The notes beneath the pieces are model-generated. The model ran no database searches and was not told the DNA's origin. It worked only from the letters and a program-made list of their open reading frames with translations. A stretch of 64,000 bases of DNA. Origin: a virus. This document shows positions 22,465 through 62,789 of this stretch, one piece after another. A program made the translations under genes and the position numbers. The stretch lies in the IMG/VR virus record IMGVR_UViG_3300028423_000904, positions 1 through 64,000 of that record, one strand, 5' to 3'. Position 1 is the stretch's first letter, and each line of letters begins with the position of its first letter.

Positions 22465-22471
22465 ATAAATA
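22465..22471 (+). promoter_or_regulatory. Late promoter box for gp13
   Basis: GATAAATACC context, 21 nt before the gp13 ATG at 22493, with CAGGAG as SD. With the box at 22449 it forms a compact divergent late promoter pair; the two boxes are 9 nt apart. Confidence 0.6.
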
Positions 22472-22492
22472 CCAGGAGAGCAGGAGCATACG

Positions 22493-23227
22493 ATGACAAC
22501 TCGCACTAAAATCCAAAAAGAAATTGAATTGCGTTTGGGTGGACAAATGACAGATGTCGAGCTCGATCCTGAACATTACGAGCTTGCTATAGACAAAGCA
22601 CTGGAAAAATTTAGACAGAGAAGCGAAAATTCTGTTGAGGAAGATTTCCATTTTTTCGAAGTTCAAACTGATCAGAACACGTATGTATTTCCAGATAATA
22701 TTATAGATGTCAAAGATTTGTATGGTAGGGTTTCTGGAACAACATCTACAGGTGTTGATTTTGAACCATTTGAAGCAAACTATTGGAACACCTTTCTTGC
22801 CAAAAACGGTGGTTCAGGGAGTCTTGCAATGTATGATTTTCTTGCACAGTATCATGAAACACTAGGTCGTTTGTTTGGCTCTGAATATGTGTTTACGTGG
22901 CGCCGCCAAACACATGAACTTTATCTACATCGTCGTCCTAGGTATCCTCGTCCAATTTATGCACATGTTTATAAGTATAGAACTGAAGATGATTTGTTTT
23001 CAGATCATATGACCATGCCATGGATCAAAGACTATGCCCTAGCTCAAAGCAAATTCATGTTGGGTGAAGCTCGTAGTAAGTTCGCAACCTATGCTGGACC
23101 ACAAGGCGGAACCACATTGAATGGCGATCAACTTAAAGCAGATGCACTTAATGAGATTGAAAGACTTGAAGAAGACATTAAACTCTACAAAGAAGGTTCA
23201 GCAGGTCTAGGAATTATCATAGGGTAA
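22493..23227 (+). CDS. 13: Neck protein gp13
   Basis: This 244-aa protein is a head-completion (neck) protein of the T4 gp13 type. Support: an N-terminal helix with EHYELAIDKALEKFRQRSEN, a beta middle, and the C-terminal MPWIKDYALAQSKFMLGEAR and SKFATYAGPQGG (about 175-205), which in connector proteins contacts the portal. It belongs with gp14 and gp15, which lie on the other strand and are expressed from the facing promoter. Confidence 0.85.
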   Translation: MTTRTKIQKEIELRLGGQMTDVELDPEHYELAIDKALEKFRQRSENSVEEDFHFFEVQTDQNTYVFPDNIIDVKDLYGRVSGTTSTGVDFEPFEANYWNTFLAKNGGSGSLAMYDFLAQYHETLGRLFGSEYVFTWRRQTHELYLHRRPRYPRPIYAHVYKYRTEDDLFSDHMTMPWIKDYALAQSKFMLGEARSKFATYAGPQGGTTLNGDQLKADALNEIERLEEDIKLYKEGSAGLGIIIG

Positions 23228-23232
23228 TCTAA

Positions 23233-23985
23233 ATGAAAGTTTCTGATATACTTGAACACAAAACCCGCCAAGGAAAAGAAATTAAATTTAAGAAAACACT
23301 AGATTCTGAAGATGAAAATCGTGGTTTTGTAGTGCACCAGCTTGATGCATTTGTGGATGGAGTTCATGCTGGTTATTTGAAAATTTCGTATATACCAAGT
23401 GAGCTATTCAAAAAGTATAATCCAACTATTTTTAATTGGATGGCAAATTTTAGTGGAAAAACAACAATTGTTCCTTTCGGTAAGGAAGCAGAACATTATA
23501 CAAATTTTACCAGAGAAGAAAAAACAAGGCTATTGAAATATTGGAGTGGATCAATAAGTGATCTAAATCGTGATTTTTCAGAATACAGTGATGAAGAGCT
23601 CACTAAAATTATTCAAGAACTTGAATCTCGTATTCTTAAAGGCAAAGATCAAGATATCAAGAATATAAAGAAAGACTATAACAAGTTTATCGATCATCAT
23701 GTTGATAAACCAAAAGTAGATTTTATCAATGTAAGAGAAAAGGATAGTTTCAATCGAAATTATCATGACGACGCCCAAGCAGATTTTAGACGTCAGGGTA
23801 TTGCTCTAGCACTTTATCAAGAAGGTTCTAAGTGGATGGACAACATGGGATTGCGGTTATATGCAAGCTCATTGCAACAGCCCGAGGCAAAAGCAGCCTG
23901 GGACAAGATGGAACGTTTAGGGTGGGTTGATCATGATGGCAACAGGTTATATCTTAACCCTCAAAAACTTCCAGAAAACAGTTGA
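23233..23985 (+). CDS. GNAT-like protein with unknown N-terminal domain
   Basis: This 250-aa product opens MKVSDILEHKTRQG. The C-terminal part (about 175-240) looks like a GNAT acetyltransferase core: DFRRQGIALALYQEGSKWMD fits the acetyl-CoA loop and helix (RxxGIA), followed by LRLYASSLQQPEAKAAWDKM and LGW as the usual end. A charged helical insertion (about 110-155) splits the fold. The role is unknown; it may be a virion-associated or host-modifying protein. It lies 5 nt after gp13. Its stop codon is inside the -35 box of the next promoter. Confidence 0.6.
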   Translation: MKVSDILEHKTRQGKEIKFKKTLDSEDENRGFVVHQLDAFVDGVHAGYLKISYIPSELFKKYNPTIFNWMANFSGKTTIVPFGKEAEHYTNFTREEKTRLLKYWSGSISDLNRDFSEYSDEELTKIIQELESRILKGKDQDIKNIKKDYNKFIDHHVDKPKVDFINVREKDSFNRNYHDDAQADFRRQGIALALYQEGSKWMDNMGLRLYASSLQQPEAKAAWDKMERLGWVDHDGNRLYLNPQKLPENS

Positions 23986-24010
23986 CATCTCCAAGACGTT
24001 TTACTATATT
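23982..24010 (+). promoter_or_regulatory. Early sigma70-type promoter
   Basis: TTGACA (23982-23987), 17-bp spacer, TATATT (24005-24010), both boxes near consensus. The start region carries TGTAAGCAACGGAG, shared with the promoters at 24525 and 43315. The -35 box overlaps the stop of the preceding gene. Confidence 0.85.
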
Positions 24011-24036: not shown

Positions 24037-24486
24037 ATGACTGCTCAACATGACCTTTTTGAAAGCCAAATTACTGATTCCCGTGACGCCCTGCGCTTTG
24101 TTTATGCTGGCCGCGCACTGTTCACTATTGTCAGCCGCAAAACCGGTCAACGGTTTACTTTCAAAGTCAATGCTCCGCATGATGACAAAGAGAGCCCTAT
24201 GCGTTTTGTCAAAGTCCTGAATGGCACTGATAATACCAGTGACTATCTTTACCTTGGTTTTTTGACCCTCAATCGCATGGGTAAACTTGCTGCCGGCAAA
24301 AAAGGCCGCGGCACTGCTCCTAGCTACCGTGCCCTGTCATGGACGCTTCGTCAGCTGGCAAAAGGCAAGATGCCTGAGGATCTTGAATTTCTTCACAGTG
24401 GTCGCTGCGGCGCTTGTGGTCGGACATTGACGGTTCCTGAAAGCATTAAGTCTGGTCTTGGTCCAGTGTGTGCAGGAAAAAGCTAA
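24037..24486 (+). CDS. Early protein with C-terminal zinc-ribbon (DUF6011-like)
   Basis: This 149-aa protein ends with CGACGRTLTVPESIKSGLGP and VC (about 127-147), a CxxC...C cluster typical of the DUF6011 type found in many phages and thought to bind zinc. The rest is a compact alpha/beta region with basic patches. It is the first gene behind a near-consensus host promoter, so it is likely made immediately after infection. Function unknown; a nucleic-acid or host-protein binding role is inference. Confidence 0.7.
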   Translation: MTAQHDLFESQITDSRDALRFVYAGRALFTIVSRKTGQRFTFKVNAPHDDKESPMRFVKVLNGTDNTSDYLYLGFLTLNRMGKLAAGKKGRGTAPSYRALSWTLRQLAKGKMPEDLEFLHSGRCGACGRTLTVPESIKSGLGPVCAGKS

Positions 24487-24524: not shown

Positions 24525-24553
24525 TTGACTCTCGGTTGTTTATCGCTTATATT
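24525..24553 (+). promoter_or_regulatory. Early sigma70-type promoter
   Basis: TTGACT (24525-24530), 17-bp spacer, TATATT (24548-24553), followed by ATGTAAGCAACGAAGGAG, the shared leader with SD. It serves the gene at 24584 and probably the chain through 26404. Confidence 0.85.
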
Positions 24554-24583: not shown

Positions 24584-24937
24584 ATGGACACCCAGAAGCA
24601 ACTTGACAAGGCCATCGACCAACTGGTTGAAGATATCAAAACTGATTATGCCAATTGGCACCTTGCCAATGGTCAGGAAATGAACAAGATTAAAGAAGAA
24701 ATGATTGAAAACTTCAATGAAAATATTCGTGTTCAGCTTGGCCGCAAATATATCAAAATCATCAGTGAAGGCGGTGTGTGGGGCTTTATTGTCGCTGCCG
24801 AAGACGACCGCAAATTCAAAGCTGGTGATATTCTGAAAGCTGCCGGATACAATGCTCCGGCCCGTAATGCTGCTCGTGGTAACGTTCTTGAGGGTGGTTA
24901 CACCATCAATTGGACTGGCCCGCTTTACCTGAAATGA
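24584..24937 (+). CDS. Small early protein, function unknown
   Basis: This 117-aa protein has an N-terminal helical half (to about 48), then a beta-rich half rich in Lys/Arg (IISEGGVWGFIVAAEDDRKF, GDILKAAGYNAPARNAARGN) ending GYTINWTGPLYLK. The ATG at 24584 is chosen because it follows the SD GAAGGAG; the frame is open upstream only into the promoter. It overlaps the next gene by ATGA. No family recognised; a DNA- or RNA-binding accessory is possible. Confidence 0.7.
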   Translation: MDTQKQLDKAIDQLVEDIKTDYANWHLANGQEMNKIKEEMIENFNENIRVQLGRKYIKIISEGGVWGFIVAAEDDRKFKAGDILKAAGYNAPARNAARGNVLEGGYTINWTGPLYLK

Positions 24938-25158
24938 AACAAAACGATACTCCTGAAATAACAACAAAGCGCGAGGAATGTCTGAGGCTGGTGCGTGAAT
25001 TGGAAAAGTGGGATGTTTATCCTTTTCGTAAAGATCGCATCAGCCTCGACAAACAGATTAAATATACACGAAATATTCGTAGGCTTGATGAAATTCATGC
25101 ACGTCTTGAAATGCTACTTAGCAAGGCAGTAATGGAGAAATTATCCAAGGGTGTCTGA
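24934..25158 (+). CDS. Small helical protein, member 1 of a tandem paralogous family
   Basis: A 74-aa helical protein. It shares a layout with the genes at 25340, 25594, 25851 and 26051: an N-terminal helix with a (V/L)xEL-E-W type end (here LRLVRELEKWDV), a middle with IDxI-like spacing, and a C-terminal helix ending AVMEKLSKGV. The start at 24934 is inside an ATGA overlap with the preceding stop. Function unknown; the chain is probably translated from one early mRNA. Confidence 0.65.
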   Translation: MKQNDTPEITTKREECLRLVRELEKWDVYPFRKDRISLDKQIKYTRNIRRLDEIHARLEMLLSKAVMEKLSKGV

Positions 25159-25159
25159 T

Positions 25160-25330
25160 ATGTCCAAATCAAAGAATCGCCGCCCTCAGCGCCCTAAAGA
25201 GCGCAATTTTTTTGCAAGGGCTGTTCGTGATCCTAACAGTCCCTTTCGGCCCAAGACTATCCCGGACAAACGAACTCGTCAAGAACAACGCAGACGAAAA
25301 CACAAAGGTCGTCTTGATGATGAAGAGTAG
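25160..25330 (+). CDS. Small very basic protein (56 aa)
   Basis: The frame reads MSKSKNRRPQRPKERNFFAR at the start and KRTRQEQRRRKHKGRLDDEE at the end. It is dominated by Arg and Lys with an acidic tip. It begins one base after the preceding stop and is followed 9 bases later by the next gene. Such composition suggests nucleic-acid binding, but no family is recognised. Coding density and tight spacing support it as a real gene. Confidence 0.6.
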   Translation: MSKSKNRRPQRPKERNFFARAVRDPNSPFRPKTIPDKRTRQEQRRRKHKGRLDDEE

Positions 25331-25339
25331 GTTAATGAA

Positions 25340-25597
25340 ATGAATACTGGTCAGGACCAAGCAGCAAAAGTAAGAAAATTGGTTGACGAAATTAGCCAAG
25401 AAGTCAATCATATTGACAACCGTAATCCGAATATCTATGCGAATTGCAAATTTAAAGGTGTTCTGTGTTTCCTCACAAGTGCACTATATGCAGAAGTTCA
25501 ACCAGGTAGCTTCTATGAAAGCTATACAATTGAAGCTCTAGAAAATTTTCTTGAAGAAATAAAGCAAGAAGAAATTATGGAAAAATTGAGATCATGA
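25340..25597 (+). CDS. Small helical protein, family member 2
   Basis: 85 aa. The N-terminal helix KVRKLVDEISQEVNHI and the C-terminus LENFLEEIKQEEIMEKLRS match the family layout; the middle contains two cysteines (NCKFKGVLCFLTSALYAEV). It overlaps the next gene by ATGA. Function unknown. Confidence 0.65.
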   Translation: MNTGQDQAAKVRKLVDEISQEVNHIDNRNPNIYANCKFKGVLCFLTSALYAEVQPGSFYESYTIEALENFLEEIKQEEIMEKLRS

Positions 25598-25851
25598 CGC
25601 AAGACGAACAAAATGCAATTGATCTTGAGCGTGTAAGATCGAAACGAGCCAGGGCCCTTACCGCCCTGGATGAATATATGAAATGGGTGTACCCTTCTCC
25701 TATGAGACTGAGTGAAGGTGTGCAGTGTCTACATAGCGTTTATAAACGCAATATTACGCACGGAACAGAGGATGATGTTGATCGCTTGATTAAGTGGTAT
25801 GAAGAAAGTAACGAAATGTCACTTTTTCAAAAGATAACAGAAGATTTATAA
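25594..25851 (+). CDS. Small helical protein, family member 3
   Basis: 85 aa: a charged N-terminal helix (LERVRSKRARALTALDEYMK followed by W), a middle with LHSVYKRNITHGTEDDVDRL, and the C-terminal MSLFQKITEDL, matching the (A/S)xxxxKI end of the family. The stop and the next start share one base (taATG). Function unknown. Confidence 0.65.
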   Translation: MTQDEQNAIDLERVRSKRARALTALDEYMKWVYPSPMRLSEGVQCLHSVYKRNITHGTEDDVDRLIKWYEESNEMSLFQKITEDL

Positions 25852-26054
25852 TGAATTCACGCATAAGAGAACTGAGAACACAGGCGTGTGAAAAGGTCAA
25901 TGAGCTTAGAGAATGGGACGGCATTGATAATGTTGATGCTGCCCAAATGCTTTATAATATTGATCAGATCGATTCTTTAGAGACTCTTGAAAAACTTGTT
26001 CAGGACCTGACTGATAATTGTCAAAAAGCAATGTTTAAAAAAATATCCAAATGA
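25851..26054 (+). CDS. Small helical protein, family member 4
   Basis: 67 aa and the clearest short form: RELRTQACEKVNELREWDGI, then AQMLYNIDQIDSLETLEKLV, then CQKAMFKKISK. The EL-EW element and the KAMFKKI end align by eye with KELEKW and KAVMEKL of member 1. It overlaps the next gene by ATGA. Confidence 0.65.
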   Translation: MNSRIRELRTQACEKVNELREWDGIDNVDAAQMLYNIDQIDSLETLEKLVQDLTDNCQKAMFKKISK

Positions 26055-26404
26055 TTGGAAAAATTGAACACAAGATACATTTGTTTTTGTATAGATATAT
26101 TCCCTTCTATCGTTATAATAGTGATAGAAGAAAAGCCTTCAAAGAAATTGAAAGGCTATGCAATGACTTGCAGGCATATTATTATCATAGAAGAAATGAC
26201 ACAAGATATTGTCACGGGATAGAACAAAAACTCGACACTGCAATTGAATGTTGGAGTAAGGTGAATGAAATACACGAAATTCGTCAACACTCTATACGTC
26301 TTTATTATGATACTAAAATCCTCGACGAATTAACAGGAATACAAAAAAGTCTAGAAGAAAGACTTGAAGAAGCCACAATGGAAAAAATGTTACAGAACCT
26401 CTAA
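26051..26404 (+). CDS. Small helical protein, family member 5 (longer)
   Basis: 117 aa. It carries an extra aromatic/hydrophobic N-terminus (LFLYRYIPFYRYNSDRR, about 11-27), then the family layout: AFKEIERLCNDLQAYYYHRR, a central segment, and LEERLEEATMEKMLQNL at the end. It is the last gene of the overlapping chain; a new promoter follows. Confidence 0.62.
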   Translation: MIGKIEHKIHLFLYRYIPFYRYNSDRRKAFKEIERLCNDLQAYYYHRRNDTRYCHGIEQKLDTAIECWSKVNEIHEIRQHSIRLYYDTKILDELTGIQKSLEERLEEATMEKMLQNL

Positions 26405-26462: not shown

Positions 26463-27089
26463 ATGAAAAGAAAAATTATCGGAATTTGTGGCTTTATTGG
26501 GTGTGGTAAAGGAACGGTTGGAGATATCCTCGAACAGGATTATGGGTTTACTAAGATTAGCTATGCTGATAAGCTCAAAGACACTGTCGCGACTATGTTC
26601 GATTGGGATCGTGATTCAATTGAAGGCAACACTGCTGAAAGTCGTGAATGGAGAGAAACACCTGATGAATTCTGGTCTAAAGAACTGGGATATGATTTTA
26701 CTCCACGTATGGCTATGCAGCGCATAGGCACTGATTGTATGCGTCAGGGCTTGGATCATCACGTTTGGGTTTTGTTTGTTAAAAAGAAACTTTTAGATAA
26801 TCCTGAAACAAATTTTGTGATACCAGATGTGAGATTTTTCAATGAAAGAGATCTCATACGCAATCTTAACGGACAAATATGGCGTGTAAAAAGAGGCCCA
26901 GACCCTGAATGGGTCAATAAAGCGATCTCTGATAATCGTTATGATACAGAATGGATGAAAGACCATCCAGAAATTCACGAAAGTGAATGGAGGTGGCTGG
27001 ATTATCCTACTGAATTTGACTTTAATATTACGAATGATGGCGGCATGAAAGAATTATACAAGCATGTCGAAAGAGCAATAAGAGATTAA
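26463..27089 (+). CDS. 1: Deoxynucleoside monophosphate kinase gp1
   Basis: This 208-aa enzyme phosphorylates dNMPs to dNDPs for phage DNA synthesis. It has the gp1-type P-loop GFIGCGKGT (10-18), then YADKLKDTVATMFDWDRD, REWRETPDEFW, and a conserved MAMQRIGTDCMRQGLDHHVW (about 80-99) followed by FVIPDVRFFNERDLI, a lid-like arginine segment. Length and motif order fit the T4 gp1 family. It stands alone behind its own promoter, followed by a hairpin. Confidence 0.88.
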   Translation: MKRKIIGICGFIGCGKGTVGDILEQDYGFTKISYADKLKDTVATMFDWDRDSIEGNTAESREWRETPDEFWSKELGYDFTPRMAMQRIGTDCMRQGLDHHVWVLFVKKKLLDNPETNFVIPDVRFFNERDLIRNLNGQIWRVKRGPDPEWVNKAISDNRYDTEWMKDHPEIHESEWRWLDYPTEFDFNITNDGGMKELYKHVERAIRD

Positions 27090-27092
27090 ATA

Positions 27093-27114
27093 CGTGGTTA
27101 TCCTCTTAACCACG
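27093..27114 (+). terminator. Hairpin after the gp1 kinase
   Basis: CGTGGTTA (27093-27100) and TAACCACG (27107-27114) form a perfect 8-bp stem with a 6-nt loop, 3 bases after the gp1 stop. No T run follows, so it may be a weak terminator or an RNA-stabilising end between early and late units. Confidence 0.5.
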
Positions 27115-27133
27115 CTAGATAAGTAGCCTCCAA

Positions 27134-27140
27134 ATAAATA
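27134..27140 (+). promoter_or_regulatory. Late promoter box for tail sheath
   Basis: ATAAATA in AAATAAATACTG context, 38 nt before the sheath ATG at 27179; the SD ACAGGAG lies between. Confidence 0.65.
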
Positions 27141-27178
27141 CTGTTAGAGCAGAATTTGGCTTTAACAGGAGATAATAC

Positions 27179-29638
27179 ATGGCTACTCTAGTATCACCAG
27201 GCGTTGACGTAACAGTTGTTGACGAAAGCGCATATGCTAGCCCAGGGGCTGGCACCATCCCACTCATTGTTGTTGCTACTGCGCAAGACAAGACTGATCC
27301 AACAGGAACAGAAACTGATGGCATTGCAAAATATACCAAATCAGCAAATGCTAACCTTGTCGTGCCGGTTACATCACAGCGTGAGCTAACACAATTTTTC
27401 GGAGACCCGACATTTGCATCAACTGAAGGTGCAGAAACAAGTGAATATGGTCTTCTCGCAGCATACAGCTATCTTGGACAGGGTTCACAGGCATATATTG
27501 TCCGTGCAGCAATTGACCTAAGCGAGCTTACAGCTACAGACACAATGCCAACTGGTCCAGCAAATGGTAACCAGATTTGGTTGGACACAGATGCTAGTTC
27601 ATTTGGTCTACACGTTTATGACTCATCGTCAGCAAGCTGGGTCTTGCAAGAAGTCACAGTTGAGGTTTCACTTTCAGCTTCAGCTGGTGAAATTTCAGAC
27701 CCAAGCAGTTATGCACCAACCGCATCAGCAGGAACCGCAGGAGACTTCCTGGTTGCTGTTCTAAGCGACGGAACCACTGGTTTTGTTCTTGGATATTTTT
27801 ATGATGATGGTGCTGCATGGCAGCCAGTAGAAGTTGGTGGTGAAGCAGCTCTAGCCGCAACCACTGTTACATATGATGCACATTACAACAGCCCTGCAAC
27901 ACCTGCAGGAGACGACATTTGGGTTAAAACAACTAGCCCAGGTAATGGTTTGAACTTGGTTGTTTACCAGTCAAATTCAAGCGGTGTGTTTGGATTGTTG
28001 GAAGTTGAAGGTGTTTCAAATGATGGCGGCACAACATATGTTGCGCAGGACGGAAGCAGCACAACTGACATCGTCAGCAGCATGGACGATAATAACATTG
28101 CTATCAATTTCACAGCAGCAAATGGCGGTGGAGAAATCCTACGCATTGAATCGAGCACTGCAACTTCACTAGATGAGGCAGTGTATGCTCAGGATGATGA
28201 ACCAACAGGCACAGCAACCGCTGGGACATATTGGTTTGACGATACAGCTACTGATCTTGATATTCTTATCAATACTGGATCAGACTGGGAACGTATTGAT
28301 GAAGCAAATATCACATTTTCAACAAGCGAGCCACTAACACCAAGTGATGATGATATCTGGATTGATACAGGAGCACCTGAATCAGAATATCCAAAACTTT
28401 ACCGTTATGACAGTGGTGCAAGCGCATGGTTGCTTTATGACAATACTGACCAGAGTACAGACCGTGGTGTCATCTTTGACGACTTTACTGTTGCAGATCG
28501 TAGCTCACTATCAAGTGGTGCAGTTACAGGTGCTAACTTGTTTGATAGTGCACCAGAAGCAGCACTATATCCAACAAACATGTTGGCAGTGAACATGGCA
28601 CACTCAAGCAACACCCTGCGTGTATGGACTGAAAGCATTTCAGTAAACAGTGGTGGCTCAACAGTTGATGGATGGGTTAATGCTGTGGCAAACAATGCAA
28701 ACGGTAGTGGTGTATTTGGTCGCCCTGCACAGCACAAGTTGGTTGCAACATCAATGCAGGCGGCGGTTTCAGGAAACGAAGACCTTCGCGATCCAAACCG
28801 TAACTTTACCCTGTTGTGTGCACCAAACTTCCCAGAGCTCACTGATGAGCTTGTAACACTCAACAGTGACCGTGGTGAAACAGCGTTTATCATTATTGAT
28901 GCACCAATGCGCCTAACACCAACAGAGGCAGTTTCATGGATCCAAGGCACTGGTGCAAGTGAAAATGGCGATGAAGGTCTTGTAACCAAGAATACCTACA
29001 GTGCTGTTTACTACCCTTCAGGACGTTCAACAACACCAGCTGGCGACACTGTTACCGTTCCAGCAAGTCATATGGTTCTTTACACATATGCTTATAACGA
29101 CAACATTAGTTATCCATGGTTTGCACCAGCAGGCCTAACACGTGGCGTTGTTCAAAACGGAAGCGCAGTAGGCTATATCACAACTGAAGAAGAGTTCAAA
29201 GCAATCAGCTTGAATCAGGGTCAAAGAGATTCAATGTATCTTAACAAACTTAACCCAATCACTCAGTTCCCACTTGAAGGTGTCGTGGTTTACGGTCAGA
29301 AGACCCTGCACCCAACATCAAGTGCACTTGACCGAGTAAATGTTGCTCGTCTTGTTGCTTACTTGCGTGAACGTTTTGACGAAATTGCTCGTCCGTTGCT
29401 TTTTGAACAGAATGACAAACTCACTCGTGATCGTGCAGTTCAGTTGTTCAATTCATTCCTCGCAGACCTACTTACCAAGCGAGCACTAACAGACTTTGCA
29501 GTGGTTTGTGATGAAAGCAACAACACACCAATTCGAATCGATAGAAATGAACTTTATATTGACGTTGCTATTGCTCCAACAAAAGCAGTTGAGTTCATTT
29601 ACATTCCGATCCGTATTGTTAACACTGGTGCCCTCTAA
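27179..29638 (+). CDS. 18: Tail sheath protein gp18
   Basis: This 819-aa protein is the contractile sheath subunit. The N-terminus MATLVSPGVDVTVVDES is the typical sheath start (SPGV motif) that forms the inter-subunit handshake. The C-terminal core includes AYNDNISYPWFAPAGLTRG (about 640-658), LNPITQFPLEGVVVYGQKTL and VNVARLVAYLRERFDEIARP (about 690-745), which are diagnostic for gp18. The middle (about 115-430) holds surface insertions with several GNQIWLDT-like repeats (for example TGPANGNQIWLDTDAS and LTPSDDDIWIDTGAP), making it longer than T4 gp18 (659 aa). A strong hairpin follows. Confidence 0.95.
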   Translation: MATLVSPGVDVTVVDESAYASPGAGTIPLIVVATAQDKTDPTGTETDGIAKYTKSANANLVVPVTSQRELTQFFGDPTFASTEGAETSEYGLLAAYSYLGQGSQAYIVRAAIDLSELTATDTMPTGPANGNQIWLDTDASSFGLHVYDSSSASWVLQEVTVEVSLSASAGEISDPSSYAPTASAGTAGDFLVAVLSDGTTGFVLGYFYDDGAAWQPVEVGGEAALAATTVTYDAHYNSPATPAGDDIWVKTTSPGNGLNLVVYQSNSSGVFGLLEVEGVSNDGGTTYVAQDGSSTTDIVSSMDDNNIAINFTAANGGGEILRIESSTATSLDEAVYAQDDEPTGTATAGTYWFDDTATDLDILINTGSDWERIDEANITFSTSEPLTPSDDDIWIDTGAPESEYPKLYRYDSGASAWLLYDNTDQSTDRGVIFDDFTVADRSSLSSGAVTGANLFDSAPEAALYPTNMLAVNMAHSSNTLRVWTESISVNSGGSTVDGWVNAVANNANGSGVFGRPAQHKLVATSMQAAVSGNEDLRDPNRNFTLLCAPNFPELTDELVTLNSDRGETAFIIIDAPMRLTPTEAVSWIQGTGASENGDEGLVTKNTYSAVYYPSGRSTTPAGDTVTVPASHMVLYTYAYNDNISYPWFAPAGLTRGVVQNGSAVGYITTEEEFKAISLNQGQRDSMYLNKLNPITQFPLEGVVVYGQKTLHPTSSALDRVNVARLVAYLRERFDEIARPLLFEQNDKLTRDRAVQLFNSFLADLLTKRALTDFAVVCDESNNTPIRIDRNELYIDVAIAPTKAVEFIYIPIRIVNTGAL

Positions 29639-29711: not shown

Positions 29712-30164
29712 ATGAACATGAGATTCTGGAAGTTCTGGACTGTTTTCGTTCTGGTGATTTTTTCACTAGTTACAGGACAGATTTATTTTGGTTTGTTTGA
29801 CCATATACTCGCGTATGACCAAACATATATTACATTCGTTAATATCGGTATATTGATACTTGCTCATTTAATGATGTTACGATTGCATTGGAAGAAAAAA
29901 TACGCAGAACAACATCATAGAATGTTGCATTACCTAGCAGACACTGTGATTGTTTTGGGTCTTATCGGAACCCTGATTGGATTTATTATCATTCTTTGGT
30001 CTGTATTTGGACCAGGTGTTGTAATTGATCCGACAAATGTATCGTTAATGACAGACATGATTTCTCAAGTTGCACAGGGTATGGGTGCAGCATTGATTAC
30101 GTCGCTTTCAGGTCTTATTAGTTCAGCTATTATTAGCCTTCAATTGGTATTTTTAGAAGAATGA
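29712..30164 (+). CDS. MotA/TolQ/ExbB-like membrane protein
   Basis: 150 aa with four predicted membrane segments (about 8-29, 39-60, 76-100, 116-147). The third carries VLGLIGTLIGFI (81-92) and the fourth QGMGAALITSLSGLISSAI (122-140), matching the channel-lining motifs of the MotA/TolQ/ExbB proton-channel family. These proteins form pentamers that use the proton motive force to move a partner; the partner candidate is the next gene, which overlaps by ATGA. It lacks the large cytoplasmic insert of ExbB/TolQ. The SD AAAGGAT is 8 nt from the first ATG. Family assignment is by motif; the role in a phage is unknown. Confidence 0.7.
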   Translation: MNMRFWKFWTVFVLVIFSLVTGQIYFGLFDHILAYDQTYITFVNIGILILAHLMMLRLHWKKKYAEQHHRMLHYLADTVIVLGLIGTLIGFIIILWSVFGPGVVIDPTNVSLMTDMISQVAQGMGAALITSLSGLISSAIISLQLVFLEE

Positions 30165-30757
30165 GAAATGTAGCATCACTATTTGCGTTCATTGATATGC
30201 TCTTTAATTTCTTATTGGGGTTCACCTCATTGTTGATTCTCTCTTTTTTGATAATCAACCCGCCTGGCGACGTAGGAAAGATTGATCCCCCAGTAAAATT
30301 AATGGCCACAATTGAATGGGACGATGAAAGTTTGGCTGATATAGATATATGGGTCAGAGGTTATGATGAAGAATGGGTTGGCTTTACAAATAAGGACGGT
30401 TCTTATGTTTCACTTGAACGTGATGACCGTGGACAACGCACTGACATTATAACTGTCAATGGTGAAGACCAAATAATCATGCGAAATTTTGAAATTATGA
30501 ATTTTACTGAATTACCAGCAGGAGAGTATTTTTTCAATATACATCACTACAGTAATGGTGGTGATCTAGAGAGCCCAGATGTTGAAGTGAAAGTAACAGT
30601 TACCAATATGGATCCACACGAGCTTATATTCCAAGACACAACGGTGTTGTCATTAAAAGAAGAAAAAACAGTTCTCTCATTTGTTGTTGATCATGAAGGT
30701 AAAATATCCGATATCCGGACCGATGTTAGACTGCCACATAAAGAAATTGGAAATTAA
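30161..30757 (+). CDS. ExbD/TolR/MotB-like protein with extracytoplasmic beta domain
   Basis: 198 aa. A single N-terminal membrane segment, LFAFIDMLFNFLLGFTSLLI and following (7-32), carries Asp12 in the place of the proton-carrying Asp of ExbD/TolR/MotB (compare PFIDVMLVLLIIFM). The remainder is predicted outside the membrane and is not the usual ExbD or OmpA-type domain: it reads TIEWDDESLADIDIWVRGYD (about 50-69), LPAGEYFFNIHHYSNGG and VEVKVTVTN, resembling beta-sandwich domains with a DxDLxV motif (DUF2135/YfaP-like). I infer a stator partner for the preceding protein with an unusual effector domain. Confidence 0.62.
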   Translation: MRNVASLFAFIDMLFNFLLGFTSLLILSFLIINPPGDVGKIDPPVKLMATIEWDDESLADIDIWVRGYDEEWVGFTNKDGSYVSLERDDRGQRTDIITVNGEDQIIMRNFEIMNFTELPAGEYFFNIHHYSNGGDLESPDVEVKVTVTNMDPHELIFQDTTVLSLKEEKTVLSFVVDHEGKISDIRTDVRLPHKEIGN

Positions 30758-36455: not shown

Positions 36456-38015
36456 ATGAATACGGTCAATACAGACCTGATCAAGAAACCATACCAATCA
36501 GAAAAACTGACGAAAGAAGAATTAAGATCGCTTGCTCTTTCGTCATTTGATCCTCTGTATTTTATCCGTAATTTTTGTTATATTCAGCATCCTACAAAAG
36601 GACGTATGTCTTTTGACCTTTTTGATTATCAGGAAGGCTTGATAAATTCATACAATGATTACCGTTATTCTATCAGTCTTCTCTCACGCCAGACTGGTAA
36701 ATCAACATGTGCAGCCGCTTATCTACTGTGGTTTGCAATGTTTAAACCAGACAGCACAATCCTAATCGCAGCACACAAACGAGACGGCGCAAACGAAATC
36801 ATGACACGTTTGCGTTATATGTATGAGAGCTGCCCAGATCATGTCCGCGCAGGTGTAACAGCATATAATAAAGGTAGTGTTGAGTTTGATAACGGTAGTA
36901 AAATTATTGCACAAGCTACCACTGAAAATACCGGACGTGGTTTGTCACTTTCGCTAGTTTATTTGGACGAATTTGCATTCGTGCCGCCGCGCGTCGCACA
37001 GGAATTCTGGACCAGTATTTCACCTACATTGTCCACTGGTGGTAAATGTATTATTACATCTACACCCAACCAGGATGATGACCAATTTGCACAAATTTGG
37101 AAACAAGCTAACAAGCGTATTGACGAATACGGAAATGAAACAGACGTTGGTATCAACGGATTTCGACCATACTTGGTCACGTGGGAAGGACACCCGGACC
37201 GAGACCAGGAATGGGCAGATAACGAACGTGCCAAAATTGGCGAAGAAAGATTTCGACGTGAACACGAATGTGAATTTATTGCATTTGACGAAACACTGAT
37301 TAACAGCATGTTCCTTAGTGGCATGGATCTTGGAATGGAACCCATGCGCCGTAGTGGACAAGTGAGATGGTATGATCGTATCCAGGACGGACAAACCTAT
37401 ATTGTTGCTCTTGATCCAAGTCTAGGCACAGGTGGTGATCCATCTGCAATACAGGTTTATGCAATTCCAGGTATGCGCCAGATCGGCGAATGGCAACACA
37501 ACAAAACACCTGTTCAAGGTCAAATCAAGATCATGAAGGGTATATTAGAAGAACTAGAAGAACATGCTCCAAACAGTGAAATTTATTATAGTGTTGAAAA
37601 TAATACACTGGGTGAAGCTGCGATTGTTTCAATTGACGAAATGGGGGAAGAAAATATACCTGGTATATTCTTAAGCGAGCCCCGCCGCAAAGGCAATGTC
37701 AGAAGGTATCGCAGGGGGTTCAATACTACAAACTCAACTAAACTGTCTGCATGTGCAAAACTCAAACGTTGGATTGAAGAAGGCACAATGAAGATACGTA
37801 GTAAAAATCTCACACGTGAATTAAAAACATTTGTTGCTCGTGGTAATAGTTATGCAGCTAAAGATGGAGAAACCGACGATCTGGTAATGTCAAGTTTGCT
37901 CGCAGTTCGTATGGCAATGCAAGTTGCAAAATATGATGAAGAAACATTCAGTGATCTTAAAGATAGTTTTGATGATACAGAACTTCGTCGTCCAATGCCA
38001 GTAGGTTTCATATGA
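36456..38015 (+). CDS. 17: Terminase large subunit gp17
   Basis: 519 aa, the DNA-packaging motor and headful nuclease. The ATPase domain has Walker A SRQTGKST (77-84), Walker B VYLDEF (168-173) and the coupling motif TSTP (201-204). The RNase H-like nuclease domain has Asp320 in ALDPSLGTGGDPSA, Glu381 in YSVENNTLGEA and Asp474/475 in DGETDDLVMS, matching the T4 triad D401/E458/D542. It is shorter than T4 gp17 (610 aa), lacking part of the N-terminal and C-terminal extensions. SD AGGAG. It overlaps the next gene by ATGA. Confidence 0.97.
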   Translation: MNTVNTDLIKKPYQSEKLTKEELRSLALSSFDPLYFIRNFCYIQHPTKGRMSFDLFDYQEGLINSYNDYRYSISLLSRQTGKSTCAAAYLLWFAMFKPDSTILIAAHKRDGANEIMTRLRYMYESCPDHVRAGVTAYNKGSVEFDNGSKIIAQATTENTGRGLSLSLVYLDEFAFVPPRVAQEFWTSISPTLSTGGKCIITSTPNQDDDQFAQIWKQANKRIDEYGNETDVGINGFRPYLVTWEGHPDRDQEWADNERAKIGEERFRREHECEFIAFDETLINSMFLSGMDLGMEPMRRSGQVRWYDRIQDGQTYIVALDPSLGTGGDPSAIQVYAIPGMRQIGEWQHNKTPVQGQIKIMKGILEELEEHAPNSEIYYSVENNTLGEAAIVSIDEMGEENIPGIFLSEPRRKGNVRRYRRGFNTTNSTKLSACAKLKRWIEEGTMKIRSKNLTRELKTFVARGNSYAAKDGETDDLVMSSLLAVRMAMQVAKYDEETFSDLKDSFDDTELRRPMPVGFI

Positions 38016-38459: not shown

Positions 38460-40019
38460 ATGACAAGCTCAATTGAACATATTTCACAACAGGTTTTCAA
38501 AATCTTAAAGGGTTTTGGACATGATATCGTTTTGTTTGATGAAGACGGACAAAAAACAGTAGATCCTGATGAAGCACGTAGATTTTATATTAAAAATCTC
38601 AAAGCAATGATTAATTTTGATGCTGATACAACCAACAATGACCTTACTATCAATCTTTCTAAAGGAACAGAGATTGACAACATCAAAAGTATGCTCAATT
38701 CTCTGCGTAAACTGTCAAGCCGTTATATTTTGAATTACACAGTCAAGACATTCGGAAAAACAATCGGACCAAAGGATTTTTCATTCATGGCGAAGAAAAA
38801 AGTAGACGAAAACAAAACAGTTAAAGAGTCAAGAAAGCTTAGACAACTTCCTGATATACCACAAGACGGAGACCAACTTCTTCTCAAAGGACAAGAAGCT
38901 TTTGATAAGATGTCTATGCTAAAAAGAAAAGGCTGGAAAGTAACCAATCAGGGCACGGCACCTGATGGAACAAAATACATGGTATTTCATTACAGCATGA
39001 AAAATCCTCCATCAAAATATGAAGCAGCTGAAAGCACAGTCAACGAAGGCTTTAGCGGCTGGCACGGGTCAGCTAAAAAGAGTATCAACGAGCTTGGTGA
39101 TGCAAGATTGGTTGTCAAGCATCGTCGCACCGTTGATGAAGAAAAGCGCGGCGCAAGAACACGTCAAATTGAAAGTATTTTTATCGAAAATTCAGAAGGT
39201 GAACGCTTCAAGTTTCCAAGCAAAAACATCACCGCAGCCAAGGCAATGGTTCGTCATGTTAAAGAAGGCGGAACACCATTTGATGAATTTGGGCAATATA
39301 TTTACGAAACCATGGAAGAGCTCAATCAGTTGAAGACATTCCAGCGTAAGAATCGCCGCAATGATTTCTTTGAAGATGCACAGATTGGAGAGGAAATTGG
39401 CGGACGTATCAATGAACTACGGTCCAATCTCAAGCAAATTTCAGGAGTTAAAGGATACGCATATCATTTTGAAAACTTTACCCGTGAAAATGCTGATGTA
39501 GATAAAGAAAAGCTTGACGAACTCAAGGATAGTGTTACTATCCAATACTTCGATGAGAGCATCTCAGACAGCCTTCCATATGTAGCAAAGGTGATTGAAA
39601 ACATGCGTGGACGTCAAGCGAAAGAAAATCACATTGTTGAACTTGCGCAGTATGTCATGAACAATAAAGATGACATTACAATGAGCCGTGAGATCGATAA
39701 TGACGATCCAGAAAATCCATCAACACGGAATTTCAAAGATCCTGCAACCGCAGTCTCAGCTTGGGTTAACTACCTTGCACCTATGGTAAAGGACGATAAA
39801 TTGTCCAATCTTATGATGCAAGCATCAGATTCGGTTTTTGAAGTTAGCACCAAACATATTAATATGGCAGCAGCCGCAATCAATGTTATTCGTAAGAATG
39901 CGAAGATTGATGAAGGTGCAGAAGAGATCAACGAACAAAAGCCATTATACGATGAAGAGATTTCATCCATTAATGAAACATTCAGCAAGTATGATATAAA
40001 GCATATCTTCCGCGGATAA
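38460..40019 (+). CDS. Large hypothetical protein, probably virion-associated
   Basis: 519 aa, soluble, with no recognised enzyme motif. Residues 1-105 form an alpha/beta domain ending YTVKTFGKTIGPKDFSFMAK. A linker contains ESRKLRQLPDIPQDG, close to the LRxLAG motif of neighbouring proteins. The middle (about 210-290) has ARLVVKHRRTVDEEKRGART, SEGERFKFPSKNITAAKAMV and GTPFDEFGQYIYETMEELNQ, a segment I associate with uncharacterised proteins of marine T4-like phages. The C-terminal half is helical. It is ended by a clear terminator. Confidence 0.7.
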   Translation: MTSSIEHISQQVFKILKGFGHDIVLFDEDGQKTVDPDEARRFYIKNLKAMINFDADTTNNDLTINLSKGTEIDNIKSMLNSLRKLSSRYILNYTVKTFGKTIGPKDFSFMAKKKVDENKTVKESRKLRQLPDIPQDGDQLLLKGQEAFDKMSMLKRKGWKVTNQGTAPDGTKYMVFHYSMKNPPSKYEAAESTVNEGFSGWHGSAKKSINELGDARLVVKHRRTVDEEKRGARTRQIESIFIENSEGERFKFPSKNITAAKAMVRHVKEGGTPFDEFGQYIYETMEELNQLKTFQRKNRRNDFFEDAQIGEEIGGRINELRSNLKQISGVKGYAYHFENFTRENADVDKEKLDELKDSVTIQYFDESISDSLPYVAKVIENMRGRQAKENHIVELAQYVMNNKDDITMSREIDNDDPENPSTRNFKDPATAVSAWVNYLAPMVKDDKLSNLMMQASDSVFEVSTKHINMAAAAINVIRKNAKIDEGAEEINEQKPLYDEEISSINETFSKYDIKHIFRG

Positions 40020-40048
40020 CAAGACGTATCGGATATAAAATTTATTAG

Positions 40049-40077
40049 AAGGGCGTTGAGTTTTCAGCGCCCTTTTT
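40049..40077 (+). terminator. Intrinsic terminator ending the late block
   Basis: GGGCGTTGA (40051-40059) pairs with TCAGCGCCC (40064-40072; one T-G pair), a 9-bp stem with a 4-nt loop, followed by TTTTT. Confidence 0.9.
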
Positions 40078-40078
40078 G

Positions 40079-40085
40079 ATAAATA
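40079..40085 (+). promoter_or_regulatory. Possible late promoter box upstream of gp32
   Basis: GATAAATA immediately after the terminator and 34 nt before the -35 box of the early promoter. It would allow gp32 to be transcribed late as well as early. Confidence 0.35.
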
Positions 40086-40112
40086 AAAATGAACAAGAAA
40101 TTCAATAAGTTG

Positions 40113-40141
40113 TTGACTTAGATGGGTTTATTGTTTATATT
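40113..40141 (+). promoter_or_regulatory. Early sigma70-type promoter for gp32
   Basis: TTGACT (40113-40118), 17-bp spacer, TATATT (40136-40141). The transcript has an 85-nt leader with structured and repeated elements before gp32. Confidence 0.85.
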
Positions 40142-40145
40142 CAAG

Positions 40146-40172
40146 ATGTTACACCAAAAGAATTGGTAACAT
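40146..40172 (+). promoter_or_regulatory. Leader hairpin of gp32 mRNA
   Basis: ATGTTAC (40146-40152) and GTAACAT (40166-40172) pair perfectly around a 13-nt loop in which CAA and TTG can extend the stem. It sits near the 5' end of the gp32 leader. T4 gp32 autoregulates by nucleating on a structured leader; this hairpin could have the same task. Inference. Confidence 0.5.
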
Positions 40173-40194
40173 GCTTGTCTCAGGCACAAACACA

Positions 40195-40214
40195 GGCTAA
40201 TATAGGCTAATATA
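40195..40214 (+). repeat. Tandem 10-bp repeat before the gp32 SD
   Basis: GGCTAATATA occurs twice in direct succession and is followed at once by GGAG, the SD of gp32. The AT-rich, unstructured repeat lies where a single-strand-binding protein would coat its own mRNA to block translation. Confidence 0.7.
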
Positions 40215-40226
40215 GGAGAAAACATT

Positions 40227-41231
40227 ATGGCTACACTAGCAGAAATCCGTGAGAAACTTCTCGCTCAAGAAAAGAAGAAGACACAAGGTGGCGGCGGTTT
40301 TGATAACGCCATTTACCCACACTGGAACACCCCCGAAAACGAAACAACAGTTGTGCGTTTCCTGCCAGATGGAGACGACAGCAACGATTTCTTCTGGCGC
40401 GAGCGTCAGATGATCAATCTGGAATTTAGCGGCATCAAAGGGCAGGACGAAGGCAAGCCTGTTACAGTTAAGGTTCCTTGCATTGAAATGTGGGAAGGAC
40501 AAAAGTGTCCAATCCACGAGGAAATCCGTCCATGGTTTAAAGACCCAAGCATGGAAGACATGGCCCGCAAATATTGGAAAAAGCGTTCATATCTTTTCCA
40601 AGGATTGGTTGTTAACAGCGCATTCACTGAGGAAGAGACTCCTGAGAATCCAATCCGTCGTTTTGTAATCAGCAAGCAGATTTACAACATTATTCAGAGT
40701 GCACTTATGGATCCAGATTTTGGTGACGTGTTGCCAACTGATTACGACGAAGGTGTAGACTTCCGCATTACCAAGACCAAGAAAGGTCAGTATGCAGATT
40801 ACACAACCAGTAACTGGGCACGTAAAGAACGCAGTCTTGATCAAGAAGAAAGAGACGCGATCGCAGAACATGGTCTGTTCAACCTATCTGACTTCCTGCC
40901 CAAGAAACCAACTCCAGAAGAGCTGGATATCATTTTCCAAATGTTTGAAGCCAGCGTAGATGGTGAGCTTTACGATCCTGAACGTTTCGCAGACTATTAC
41001 CGTCCATATGGTATGGACAAGCCAGATTCTGGTGCAAGTGATCGTTCAGCACACAAGAATGAAACACCAAAAGCAGAGCCTGCTAAAACTGAGAGCAGTG
41101 CAACATCTGAAGATAGTGAAGAAGATACTTCTGCCAAGCAGCCAGTGGAAACCCCAGAAGAATCATCTGGTGGTGGCACGGATGCAAAAGACATTCTTGC
41201 CAAGATCCGCGCTCGTAAAGAAGCCGGATAA
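40227..41231 (+). CDS. 32: Single-stranded DNA-binding protein gp32
   Basis: 334 aa, the replication and recombination SSB. The N-terminus is the short basic/helical cooperativity region. The core has TTVVRFLPDGDD (41-52) and a zinc site, VPCIEMWEGQKCPIH, with Cys85, Cys94 and His97 in the places of T4 Cys77, Cys87 and Cys90 (the last replaced by His). PNEK-like core segments YSLFQGLVVNSAF- and YADYTTSNWARKE-type follow. The C-terminus (about 275-334) is acidic and Ser/Thr-rich, the partner-binding tail. It has its own promoter and terminator. Confidence 0.93.
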   Translation: MATLAEIREKLLAQEKKKTQGGGGFDNAIYPHWNTPENETTVVRFLPDGDDSNDFFWRERQMINLEFSGIKGQDEGKPVTVKVPCIEMWEGQKCPIHEEIRPWFKDPSMEDMARKYWKKRSYLFQGLVVNSAFTEEETPENPIRRFVISKQIYNIIQSALMDPDFGDVLPTDYDEGVDFRITKTKKGQYADYTTSNWARKERSLDQEERDAIAEHGLFNLSDFLPKKPTPEELDIIFQMFEASVDGELYDPERFADYYRPYGMDKPDSGASDRSAHKNETPKAEPAKTESSATSEDSEEDTSAKQPVETPEESSGGGTDAKDILAKIRARKEAG

Positions 41232-41250
41232 TTTTTCACACTCAACTCAA

Positions 41251-41278
41251 GCCAGGCCCTTGGGGCCTGGCTCTTTTT
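41251..41278 (+). terminator. Intrinsic terminator after gp32
   Basis: GCCAGGCCC (41251-41259) pairs with GGGCCTGGC (41263-41271), a perfect 9-bp stem with a 3-nt loop, followed by TCTTTTT. Some read-through is probably needed to express uvsX, for which I see no separate strong promoter. Confidence 0.92.
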
Positions 41279-41298
41279 GCCCTTATTAAGGAGTTCTC

Positions 41299-42408
41299 AT
41301 GGCGAATAAACCCTTTGATGTTTCAAAATTTAGAAAATCAATCACGAAAAGTGTTACTGGACTCAGTGTGGGATTTCGTGACCCAGATACCTGGATCTCA
41401 ACAGGTAATTATACTCTCAATAAATTAATCAGTGATGATTTCCATAAAGGTGTTCCTCTTGGTAAAGTAACGATGTTCGCAGGCGAAAGCGGCGCCGGCA
41501 AAAGTTTTATTGCGGCTGGTAATCTAGTTCGTAATGCACAGGACCAGGGTATCTTTGTGGTATTGATTGACACTGAAAACGCACTAGACGAAGCTTGGTT
41601 GCAAGCACTCAATGTGGATACCAGCGAGGACAAAATACTCAAACTCAACATGGCAATGATTGACGATGTTGCCAAAGTTATCAATGACTTTGTCAAGGAC
41701 TATCGCAGCGAGTATGGCGCTCTTGATGAAGATGACCGCCCTAAAGTCCTGTTTGTTGTTGATAGCTTGGGCATGTTGCTGACACCTACTGATGTTGATC
41801 AGTTCAGCAAAGGTGATATGAAAGGCGACATGGGCCGCAAAGCACGACAACTCAAATCACTTGTAACCAATTGTGTAAACATGTTTGGTGATCTTAATAT
41901 CGGAATGGTGTGCACTAACCACACATATGCTAGCCAGGACATGTTTGATCCGGATCCAAAAATTTCAGGTGGTTCCGGAATGGTATATGCAGCTAGTATT
42001 GTTGTCGCCATGAAAAAGATGAAGCTTAAAGAAGATGCCGAAGGCAACAAATCTGGTGATGTTCATGGTATCCGTGCCGGCTGTAAAGTAGTCAAGTCAC
42101 GATACAGTAAACCATTTGAGAGTGTTCAGATCAAGATTCCTTGGGATACAGGCATGGATCCATACAGTGGATTGGTTGAATTTCTTGAAGCACAAAAGCT
42201 TCTTGTTAAAACAGGAAACAAGTTGGAGTATACGAGTCCGGAAACTGGTGAAGTGATCAAACAATTCCGCAAGGAATGGCAATCAAATAAAGATGGTTGC
42301 TTGGATCAAATCATGCAGGAATTCGGACATCATGATGTAATGTCTAAATTACATGAAGGTGTTGGAGAGCTAAATAGCTCAGAAGACGACGAATCTTCAG
42401 AAATTTAA
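41299..42408 (+). CDS. uvsX: UvsX recombinase (RecA-like)
   Basis: 369 aa. It catalyses strand exchange in phage recombination-dependent replication. Walker A is GESGAGKS (62-69); VLIDTENALDEAWL follows the catalytic Glu pattern; VLFVVDSLGMLL is Walker B; and GDMGRKARQLKSLVTNCVN with CTNHTYA matches the UvsX L1/L2 region. SD AAGGAG. It lies directly after gp32 and before UvsY, its loading factor, with one small gene between. Confidence 0.95.
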   Translation: MANKPFDVSKFRKSITKSVTGLSVGFRDPDTWISTGNYTLNKLISDDFHKGVPLGKVTMFAGESGAGKSFIAAGNLVRNAQDQGIFVVLIDTENALDEAWLQALNVDTSEDKILKLNMAMIDDVAKVINDFVKDYRSEYGALDEDDRPKVLFVVDSLGMLLTPTDVDQFSKGDMKGDMGRKARQLKSLVTNCVNMFGDLNIGMVCTNHTYASQDMFDPDPKISGGSGMVYAASIVVAMKKMKLKEDAEGNKSGDVHGIRAGCKVVKSRYSKPFESVQIKIPWDTGMDPYSGLVEFLEAQKLLVKTGNKLEYTSPETGEVIKQFRKEWQSNKDGCLDQIMQEFGHHDVMSKLHEGVGELNSSEDDESSEI

Positions 42409-42418
42409 GAGGATAATC

Positions 42419-42673
42419 ATGAAGTTACATGCAACTGAAGCAGTTGCGCTGGTTGAACTTTGGGCAGGGATTAAAAATTATGTTCCTGCCAAAGATCAGC
42501 GCAACTGTGCGGATCAATTCATCAATAATATTGACGAAGCAGGACTAGTTGATATAGGCATGGTAAGCCAGGATTTGTATGGCGTTTGTGAGACATTTGA
42601 TAAAGCATTACGCTCATACTGTCAGGAAAATGGCCTGGATGATGACATGGATTTAGAAGACTGGGATGAATAA
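42419..42673 (+). CDS. Small acidic protein between uvsX and uvsY
   Basis: 84 aa, helical, with an acidic C-terminus (DDDMDLEDWDE). It begins MKLHATEAVALVELWAGIKN. The SD AGAGGA is clear and the gene abuts uvsY (stop then ATG with no gap). A role in recombination is suggested by position only; no family identified. Confidence 0.7.
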   Translation: MKLHATEAVALVELWAGIKNYVPAKDQRNCADQFINNIDEAGLVDIGMVSQDLYGVCETFDKALRSYCQENGLDDDMDLEDWDE

Positions 42674-43135
42674 ATGGCCGGTTGGTATAACAAGGTTAAA
42701 GACAACCTTGGCAATGTAGTAAATGCAATAGATTATTACGAAGCAGAATTCGAGGAAGCCCGTAAAGAAACCAGTCTACATGGTAACCTTGAACGAAATA
42801 GCAGAGATCTTCCTGGGCTGGTCTCGTATCGATTTGGCCAGCTACAGGAAATCGAAGCTATTCTAGAATATCTCAACATTGAATTACGCAAGATACATCG
42901 CGCAAAATATCGCAAATACCTTGAGCATTATAATAGAGCGTTGAGCAGTCGAGATGCTGATAAGTTTGCTGAAGGCGATCAGGAATATATTGACATGGAG
43001 CATATTGTCAACGAGTTTGCCCTTGTGCGAAATAAATTTTTGTCTCTTATGAAAGGATTGGATGCAAAACAATTTCAAATCAATAATATCACGAAGTTGC
43101 GAACGGCTGGTCTTGAAAACATCCACTTAGACTAA
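42674..43135 (+). CDS. uvsY: UvsY recombination mediator
   Basis: 153 aa. UvsY helps UvsX replace gp32 on single-stranded DNA. The sequence has the family features: paired N-terminal helices with a conserved GNLERNSRDLPGLVSYRFGQ, then LQEIEAILEYLNIELRKIHR, then a KYRKYLEHYNRALSSRDADK segment and the C-terminal helix KQFQINNITKLRTAGLE, which forms the oligomer core. T4 UvsY is 137 aa. The uvsX-uvsY order supports it. Confidence 0.85.
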   Translation: MAGWYNKVKDNLGNVVNAIDYYEAEFEEARKETSLHGNLERNSRDLPGLVSYRFGQLQEIEAILEYLNIELRKIHRAKYRKYLEHYNRALSSRDADKFAEGDQEYIDMEHIVNEFALVRNKFLSLMKGLDAKQFQINNITKLRTAGLENIHLD

Positions 43136-46330: not shown

Positions 46331-46371
46331 GCCGCAGGTCAGTCTCGGGTTTGAAACCCGAGCTCTGCGGC
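46331..46371. terminator. Bidirectional terminator between the AAA+ gene and the fibre genes
   Basis: Nested inverted repeats: GCCGCAG (46331-46337) with CTGCGGC (46365-46371), enclosing the perfect CTCGGGTTT (46344-46352) and AAACCCGAG (46354-46362). It includes the end of the last minus-strand fibre gene. A further repeat, ACTTGCCTT/AAGGCAAGT (46300-46318), overlaps the AAA+ stop. Confidence 0.7.
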
Positions 46372-47319: not shown

Positions 47320-47328
47320 GGTATTTCC

Positions 47329-48312: not shown

Positions 48313-48321
48313 TTTATTTCC

Positions 48322-49311: not shown

Positions 49312-49332
49312 GTCTTTATCCTTTACATGTAT

Positions 49333-62771: not shown

Positions 62772-62789
62772 ATGTGTAATCTGGAAATA

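Follow-up and report, generated by a model that had tools for sequence, protein, structure and literature searches.

A C-terminal helix motif common to small proteins of an accessory cassette in a T4-like myovirus

Introduction

T4-like phages carry early accessory cassettes ('morons'), sets of variable small genes that have a sigma-70-type promoter to themselves and occupy one fixed position, with conserved late genes on either side. A run of short, mostly overlapping genes in viral DNA from IMG/VR raises the question of what the products of such a cassette have in common, and what the common part would do. The original prediction took five of these genes as one helical family that arose by serial duplication behind a single early promoter and adapts rapidly against host targets. 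Here we compare the locus with its relatives in other viral contigs, and find that only three of the five proteins resemble each other over almost their full length, while a short C-terminal motif is present in all five.

Results

The cassette occupies a fixed site

The window analysed here is a stretch of 64,000 nt from a 91,539-bp IMG/VR viral contig. Its genes for tail sheath, tail tube, head–tail adaptor and terminase indicate a T4-like myovirus, and the nearest named phages for sheath and terminase are Pseudomonas phage PA5oct and its kin, at 46–55% identity. The small genes lie between the head–tail adaptor gene (22493–23227) and the deoxynucleoside monophosphate (dNMP) kinase and tail sheath genes (26463–29638). 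Same-site relatives were found in viral contigs with a sheath identity of at least 68%, and all of those that have both flanking genes carry cassette genes, over 2.0–3.8 kb. At sheath identities of 60% or less, the adaptor–kinase gap is 38–116 nt or about 500–800 nt, with no cassette gene inside. The site is thus empty in more distant phages, and the block is a site-specific accessory cassette.

All six frames first noted between 24934 and 26404 (five small genes and a basic one) are correct in their lengths and junctions, but the chain does not begin at 24934 as had been proposed: its true start is upstream, at g0 (24037) or gA (24584), with a 4-nt overlap between gA and g1 (Table 1). From the stop of gA (24937) through g6, the junctions are −4, +1, +9, −4, −1 and −4, mostly ATGA or TAATG overlaps. 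The genes of the block that lack the C-terminal motif described below are found mainly upstream of g2. The likeness to DUF7230 (Pfam PF23876) concerns g2 only, covers residues 13–51 with an E-value of 5.5e-4, which is under the curated cut-off, and is seen in three of ten orthologues. We also considered g2 as ArfA-like from its K/R-rich C-terminus, as seen by eye, and rejected this, as the g2 profile retrieved no ribosome-bound ArfA chain in the PDB. Weaker relatives of g2 (38–43%) occur in other viral contigs, where the neighbours are different.

Table 1. Features of the cassette and its borders (positions in the window)
Feature	Position	Strand	Remarks
T4-type late promoter element (ATAAATAC)	22465..22472	+	before head–tail adaptor gene; left border context
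P1, sigma-70-like (TTGACA-17-TATATT), then GTAAGCAACGGAG	23982..24010	+	
g0	24037..24486	+	149 aa; DUF6011 C-terminal Cys motif; accessory block; without C-terminal helix motif
P2, sigma-70-like (TTGACT-17-TATATT)	24525..24553	+	within conserved block TTGAC(A/T)...CTTATATT-N6-GTAAGCAA
gA	24584..24937	+	117 aa; weak DUF7717 / phrog_5014 match; conserved, first in chain
g1	24934..25158	+	74 aa; paralogue family A (KRxxxxxLLxEFxxW helix + C-terminal helix)
g1 C-terminal motif AVMEKL	25126..25143	+	
g2	25160..25330	+	56 aa, very basic, pI 11.7; weak DUF7230 match; without motif
g3	25340..25597	+	85 aa; family B; three helices predicted
g3 C-terminal motif EIMEKL	25571..25588	+	
g4	25594..25851	+	85 aa; family A; three helices predicted
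g4 C-terminal motif SLFQKI	25819..25836	+	
g5	25851..26054	+	67 aa; family A; divergent copy, this contig only
g5 C-terminal motif AMFKKI	26028..26045	+	
g6	26051..26404	+	117 aa; relative is L127:5246-5623
g6 C-terminal motif ATMEKM	26372..26389	+	
dNMP kinase	26463..27089	+	right border of cassette
T4-type late promoter element (ATAAATAC)	27134..27141	+	before tail sheath gene

The cassette has its own host-type promoters

The proposal of one strong promoter holds for P2, but a second one, P1, had been missed; both are good sigma-70-type sequences with 17-nt spacers. They belong to a block with the consensus TTGACAAACCAAGGCACTTTGCTTATATT-N6-GTAAGCAAAGGAG, which recurs in relatives at the cassette and at other loci, so that the cassette has its own sigma-70-type promoter, conserved in relatives, as an early accessory cassette does. 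T4-type late elements (ATAAATA) precede the adaptor (22465), sheath (27134), tube (31937) and fibre genes. With sigma-70 promoters on the cassette and late elements at the flanking genes, the locus reads as a host-promoter cassette between late transcription units, and its promoters would fit early expression. The same block is present at another locus of the contig (43315–43360, plus strand), and it often overlaps a reading frame coding for (V)DxPRHFAYI. On the minus strand, four predicted genes have TATAAATA exactly 29 nt upstream (contig positions 62772, 64483, 67053 and 68133), and these sites are predicted T4-type late promoters.

Three of the five genes are paralogues

Pairwise similarity of the cassette proteins is marginal, and profiles are needed. 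We compared profiles by hhalign, with reversed profiles and 40 column shuffles as controls. Over almost the full length, the probabilities were 92.7% for g4–g1, 88.4% for g4–g5 and 78.4% for g1–g5, against at most 1.2% for reversed profiles and 2.9–29% for the best of the 40 shuffles. When the last 14 residues were cut, these values became 65.7%, 15.7% and 45.7%, respectively. In contrast, g3 aligned with g4 over the last 17 residues only (24%) and g6 with g1 over the last 27 only (43%), and without their C-terminal 14 residues neither g3 nor g6 matched anything within the cassette (0.2–2.3%). The profiles thus indicate that g1, g4 and g5 (family A) are true paralogues, whereas the one-family claim does not extend to g3 and g6. 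The proposed EL-EW element follows the same division, being present in g1 (RELEKW) and g5 (NELREW) and degenerate in g4 (DEYMKW), but absent from g3 and g6. Against shuffled sequences, g6 and its relative L127:5246–5623 gave z = 10, and 4.2 without the C-terminus.

In the tree, g1 from seven phages forms one clade (97/94) apart from g4, with the deeper fork unsettled, and g5 is a lone long branch. As the g1 clade is common to related phages, the g1/g4 split is old and not a recent duplication in this phage. Duplication and divergence are therefore upheld for g1, g4 and g5 but not for g3 and g6, and their recency fails at least for the g1/g4 split. Tandem diverged copies of family A, 28–39% identical, are also found in L008, L015 and L118.

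The C-terminal motif extends beyond family A

As had been predicted from an AxMEK(L/I)-like ending, all five genes end in [hydrophobic][MLF]xK[LMI], 3–5 residues before the stop, a loose pattern that also fits 2 of the contig's 97 other genes. Because this pattern was drawn up with the five genes already in view, a matrix built without them is the fairer test. We trained a matrix on family A only and scored it against 801 non-cassette genes in nine genomes. g3, g6 and most other non-family members outscored all 801 background genes, with most cassette members between 15 and 37 and the two weakest at 10.8 and 11.8. Five of the tested proteins gave no decision (two cysteine-rich ones, L017_178, L140_2034 and L143_4870), and for the three cysteine-rich members 0, 5 and 165 of the 801 background genes scored as high. 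The nearest non-cassette gene was G002:58427–58792 alone, which adjoins a cassette. Judged by these scores, the motif extends beyond family A to g3, g6 and others, which is our main finding.

The consensus, hydrophobic-acidic-x4-A-[LV]-M-x-K-L-[SE]-x(1-5)-COOH, describes a strictly C-terminal amphipathic helix, and in a gene-by-gene walk through 18 phages it ends 47 of the 51 genes that lie between the stop of g2 and the start of the kinase gene. Among 54 distinct cases, numbered from the motif lysine, L, I or M stands at −11 in 44, E or D at −10 in 34, A at −4 in 23, L, V or M at −3 in 44, M at −2 in 36, K at 0 in 52 and L at +1 in 46. The lysine lies 3–7 residues from the C-terminus, with a single exception at 14. 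Without their last 15 residues, the motif proteins form at least six sequence clusters, with some singletons besides. Families A (g1/g4/g5) and B (g3) are two of the clusters; the others include a cysteine-rich family (L002, L005, L140), a small family called CEFM and a group from L017, L140 and L143, and g6 is among the singletons. Tandem HRTDGPA-repeat proteins adjoin the cassette in some relatives (L014:1707–2283 and L141:1982–3063) and have a separate ending, EEKVMxKLxYG. Those of L014, L137 and L141, which end in EEKVMMKLKYG, fit the loose pattern but scored only 0.9 with the matrix, and were dropped.

Predicted structures and a common origin

The helical plan that the original prediction gave to all five proteins is borne out in the two that were modelled. 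AlphaFold2 predicts three helices for g4 (residues 3–32, 41–56 and 59–84; pLDDT 91.8) and for g3 (3–28, 34–51 and 58–84; pLDDT 94.8), and both models place the motif at the end of their third helix. Neither model had a significant Foldseek match, and the two lists had no common target. The top PDB matches of the g4 model were PezA/epsilon antitoxins, which are three-helix bundles; these were not significant (E 0.57–1.5, TM about 0.4, 11–17% identity), no adjacent toxin gene was recognised, and we do not regard g4 as an antitoxin of this kind.

These models bear on the possibility that all five genes come from one three-helix gene by serial duplication, with the C-terminal helix as the slowest-changing part of one fold. 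The full-length paralogy of g1, g4 and g5, the tandem family A copies in other phages, and the long–short–long arrangement confidently predicted for both g3 and g4 are what such a history would leave. In g3 and g6, the shared helix could be the last recognisable part of a very distant homology, given the three-helix plan common to g3 and g4, and the conserved helix could also be a structural part of a bundle. However, the failure of g3 and g6 to match anything in the cassette without their last 14 residues, and the disjoint Foldseek lists, speak against one origin, as does the motif at the end of a cysteine-rich protein (L140:2321–2569) and of other unrelated-looking proteins. On balance, we consider descent of all five from one gene rather unlikely.

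The motif is conserved as protein

The 3′ ends might be conserved as DNA or RNA, for instance because they hold the ribosome-binding site of the overlapping next gene or serve it as a recombination joint, and the peptide would then be a by-product. Most junctions do overlap, by 4–17 nt, and several g3 ends share AAGTTGGAATCATGA with the cysteine-rich L140 gene, which is in g3's place before g4, so that 3′-end recombination is possible at those genes. Elsewhere, however, codons vary freely while the residues are kept, and the motif leucine is encoded by all six leucine codons. The motif also persists in genes that have no overlapping downstream start, including last genes that end 32–90 nt before the kinase. 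As the codons vary and the motif does not depend on an overlapping start, it is kept as protein, by selection at the protein level; codon diversity largely refutes the explanation at the DNA level, to which we give hardly any credence.

In the close trio of relatives, whole-gene omega was 0.3–0.46 for g1, g3 and g4, with one exception of 0.12, and 0.07–0.09 for g2, the most conserved gene of the cassette; g3 and g4 change fastest. Values of 0.07–0.46 mean that these are real genes under purifying selection. The idea of rapid adaptation gains mildly from the difference between 0.3–0.46 and the values of g2, but there is no sign of positive selection, which we rejected for the cassette genes at a whole-gene omega of 0.12–0.46.

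Searches for function

g1 and g3–g6 gave no convincing match in Pfam, PHROGs, PADLOC, the PDB or the named phages of INPHARED; in particular, none of them matched the sequence of a described anti-defence or inhibitor family there. Weak single matches, such as that between g1 and a model of a type II restriction enzyme (E 0.006), were not credited. The g3 and g4 family profiles found nothing in the PDB, and no relative was found by searching INPHARED with g4 of L110 and g2 and g3 of L137, nor by comparing the canonical g4 (L110) with GTDB species genomes. A scan of viral contigs with the g6 sequence was likewise without a match.

Other genes of the contig and its relatives

Just after the tail sheath, two overlapping genes lie at 29712–30757 (plus strand). 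The first, conserved in relatives at 53–67% identity, encodes a MotA/TolQ/ExbB-family protein (PF01618, E 4.7e-6, over the cut-off) with weak ZorA matches. The product of the second opens with one membrane segment, containing AFIDMLFNFL, that by eye resembles MotB/ExbD N-termini; a phage-encoded stator-like pair, if true, would be unusual. In the window, the gene for the large subunit of terminase (36456–38015) is intact, but in two relatives (G001, 47898–50916; G002, 39376–42945) it is split near residue 272 by about 1.5–2 kb, a candidate intron or intein. Three adjacent similar genes of about 330 aa lie at 46339–49311 and a fourth at 52948–53946, all on the minus strand; the one scanned (46339–47319) matches phrog_6368, and these genes are probably fibre-associated.

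Discussion

The evidence describes an accessory cassette inserted between the adaptor and dNMP kinase/sheath genes, with host-type promoters that would drive it separately. At its core is a translationally coupled run of genes whose products differ in their N-terminal bodies, which are interchangeable: g1, g4 and g5 have that of helical family A, g3 that of family B and g6 one of its own, and relatives add the cysteine-rich family and others. We propose that the common C-terminal helix may act as a docking element for one partner, a phage or a host protein; the variable body would do the specific job and the helix would bring each product to that partner, possibly early and against the host. 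A docking element on interchangeable accessory proteins is the reading we prefer, with confidence evenly balanced. More tentatively, and with some doubt, the cassette may be a plug-in tag system, in which unrelated small effectors reach a common partner and new ones come to work by gaining the tail within one operon site.

The partner could instead be another member of the cassette. If the C-terminal helices bind each other, the coupled genes would form one hetero-oligomeric complex with a varying outer surface, a model consistent with the tight translational coupling, with the conserved hydrophobic row and acidic stretch of the amphipathic helix, and with the co-occurrence of g3 and g4 in most phages. 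However, a phage may have anything from 1 to 5 members, and of differing kinds, unlike a complex of fixed stoichiometry, and we judge such a complex unlikely.

The T4 internal proteins IPI–IPIII are small, dispensable and highly diverse, and have one short capsid targeting sequence in common (PMC3012670, PMC9026906). In the cassette, too, a short terminal sequence is the main link between small and diverse phage proteins, and this motif might accordingly be a virion-packaging tag that takes the proteins into the head, to be ejected into the host. The pattern of diverse, small, dispensable proteins with only a short terminal sequence in common (PMC3012670, PMC9026906) is in line with packaging, as are the location of the cassette within the late region and the T4-type prohead protease that four relatives have. 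In T4, however, basic proteins carry the sequence at their N-terminus, whereas here it is C-terminal and the carriers are mostly acidic (median pI 5.2). A gp21-like [LI]xE site precedes the motif in 18 of 46 cases against 11.3 expected, and the host-type promoters argue against purely late use. As every member has the element at its C-terminus and not in the defining N-terminal position, we do not file the cassette with the T4 internal proteins, and regard packaging as very unlikely.

Another parallel is with the 'morons' of T4-like phages, as here too there are own sigma-70-type promoters and a site that is empty in other phages. The difference is the C-terminal helix shared throughout this cassette; we know of no such helix in accessory cassettes of T4-like phages, and a brief literature search returned no similar case. 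If the preferred reading is true, a docking element would mirror, at the C-terminus, the T4 idea of capsid targeting. Phage accessory genes are mostly single unknowns, and a short element common to otherwise different neighbours would let these be approached together: once the partner of the tail is found, the job of the whole cassette would become testable. Phages without annotated function could also be searched with the tail for further members.
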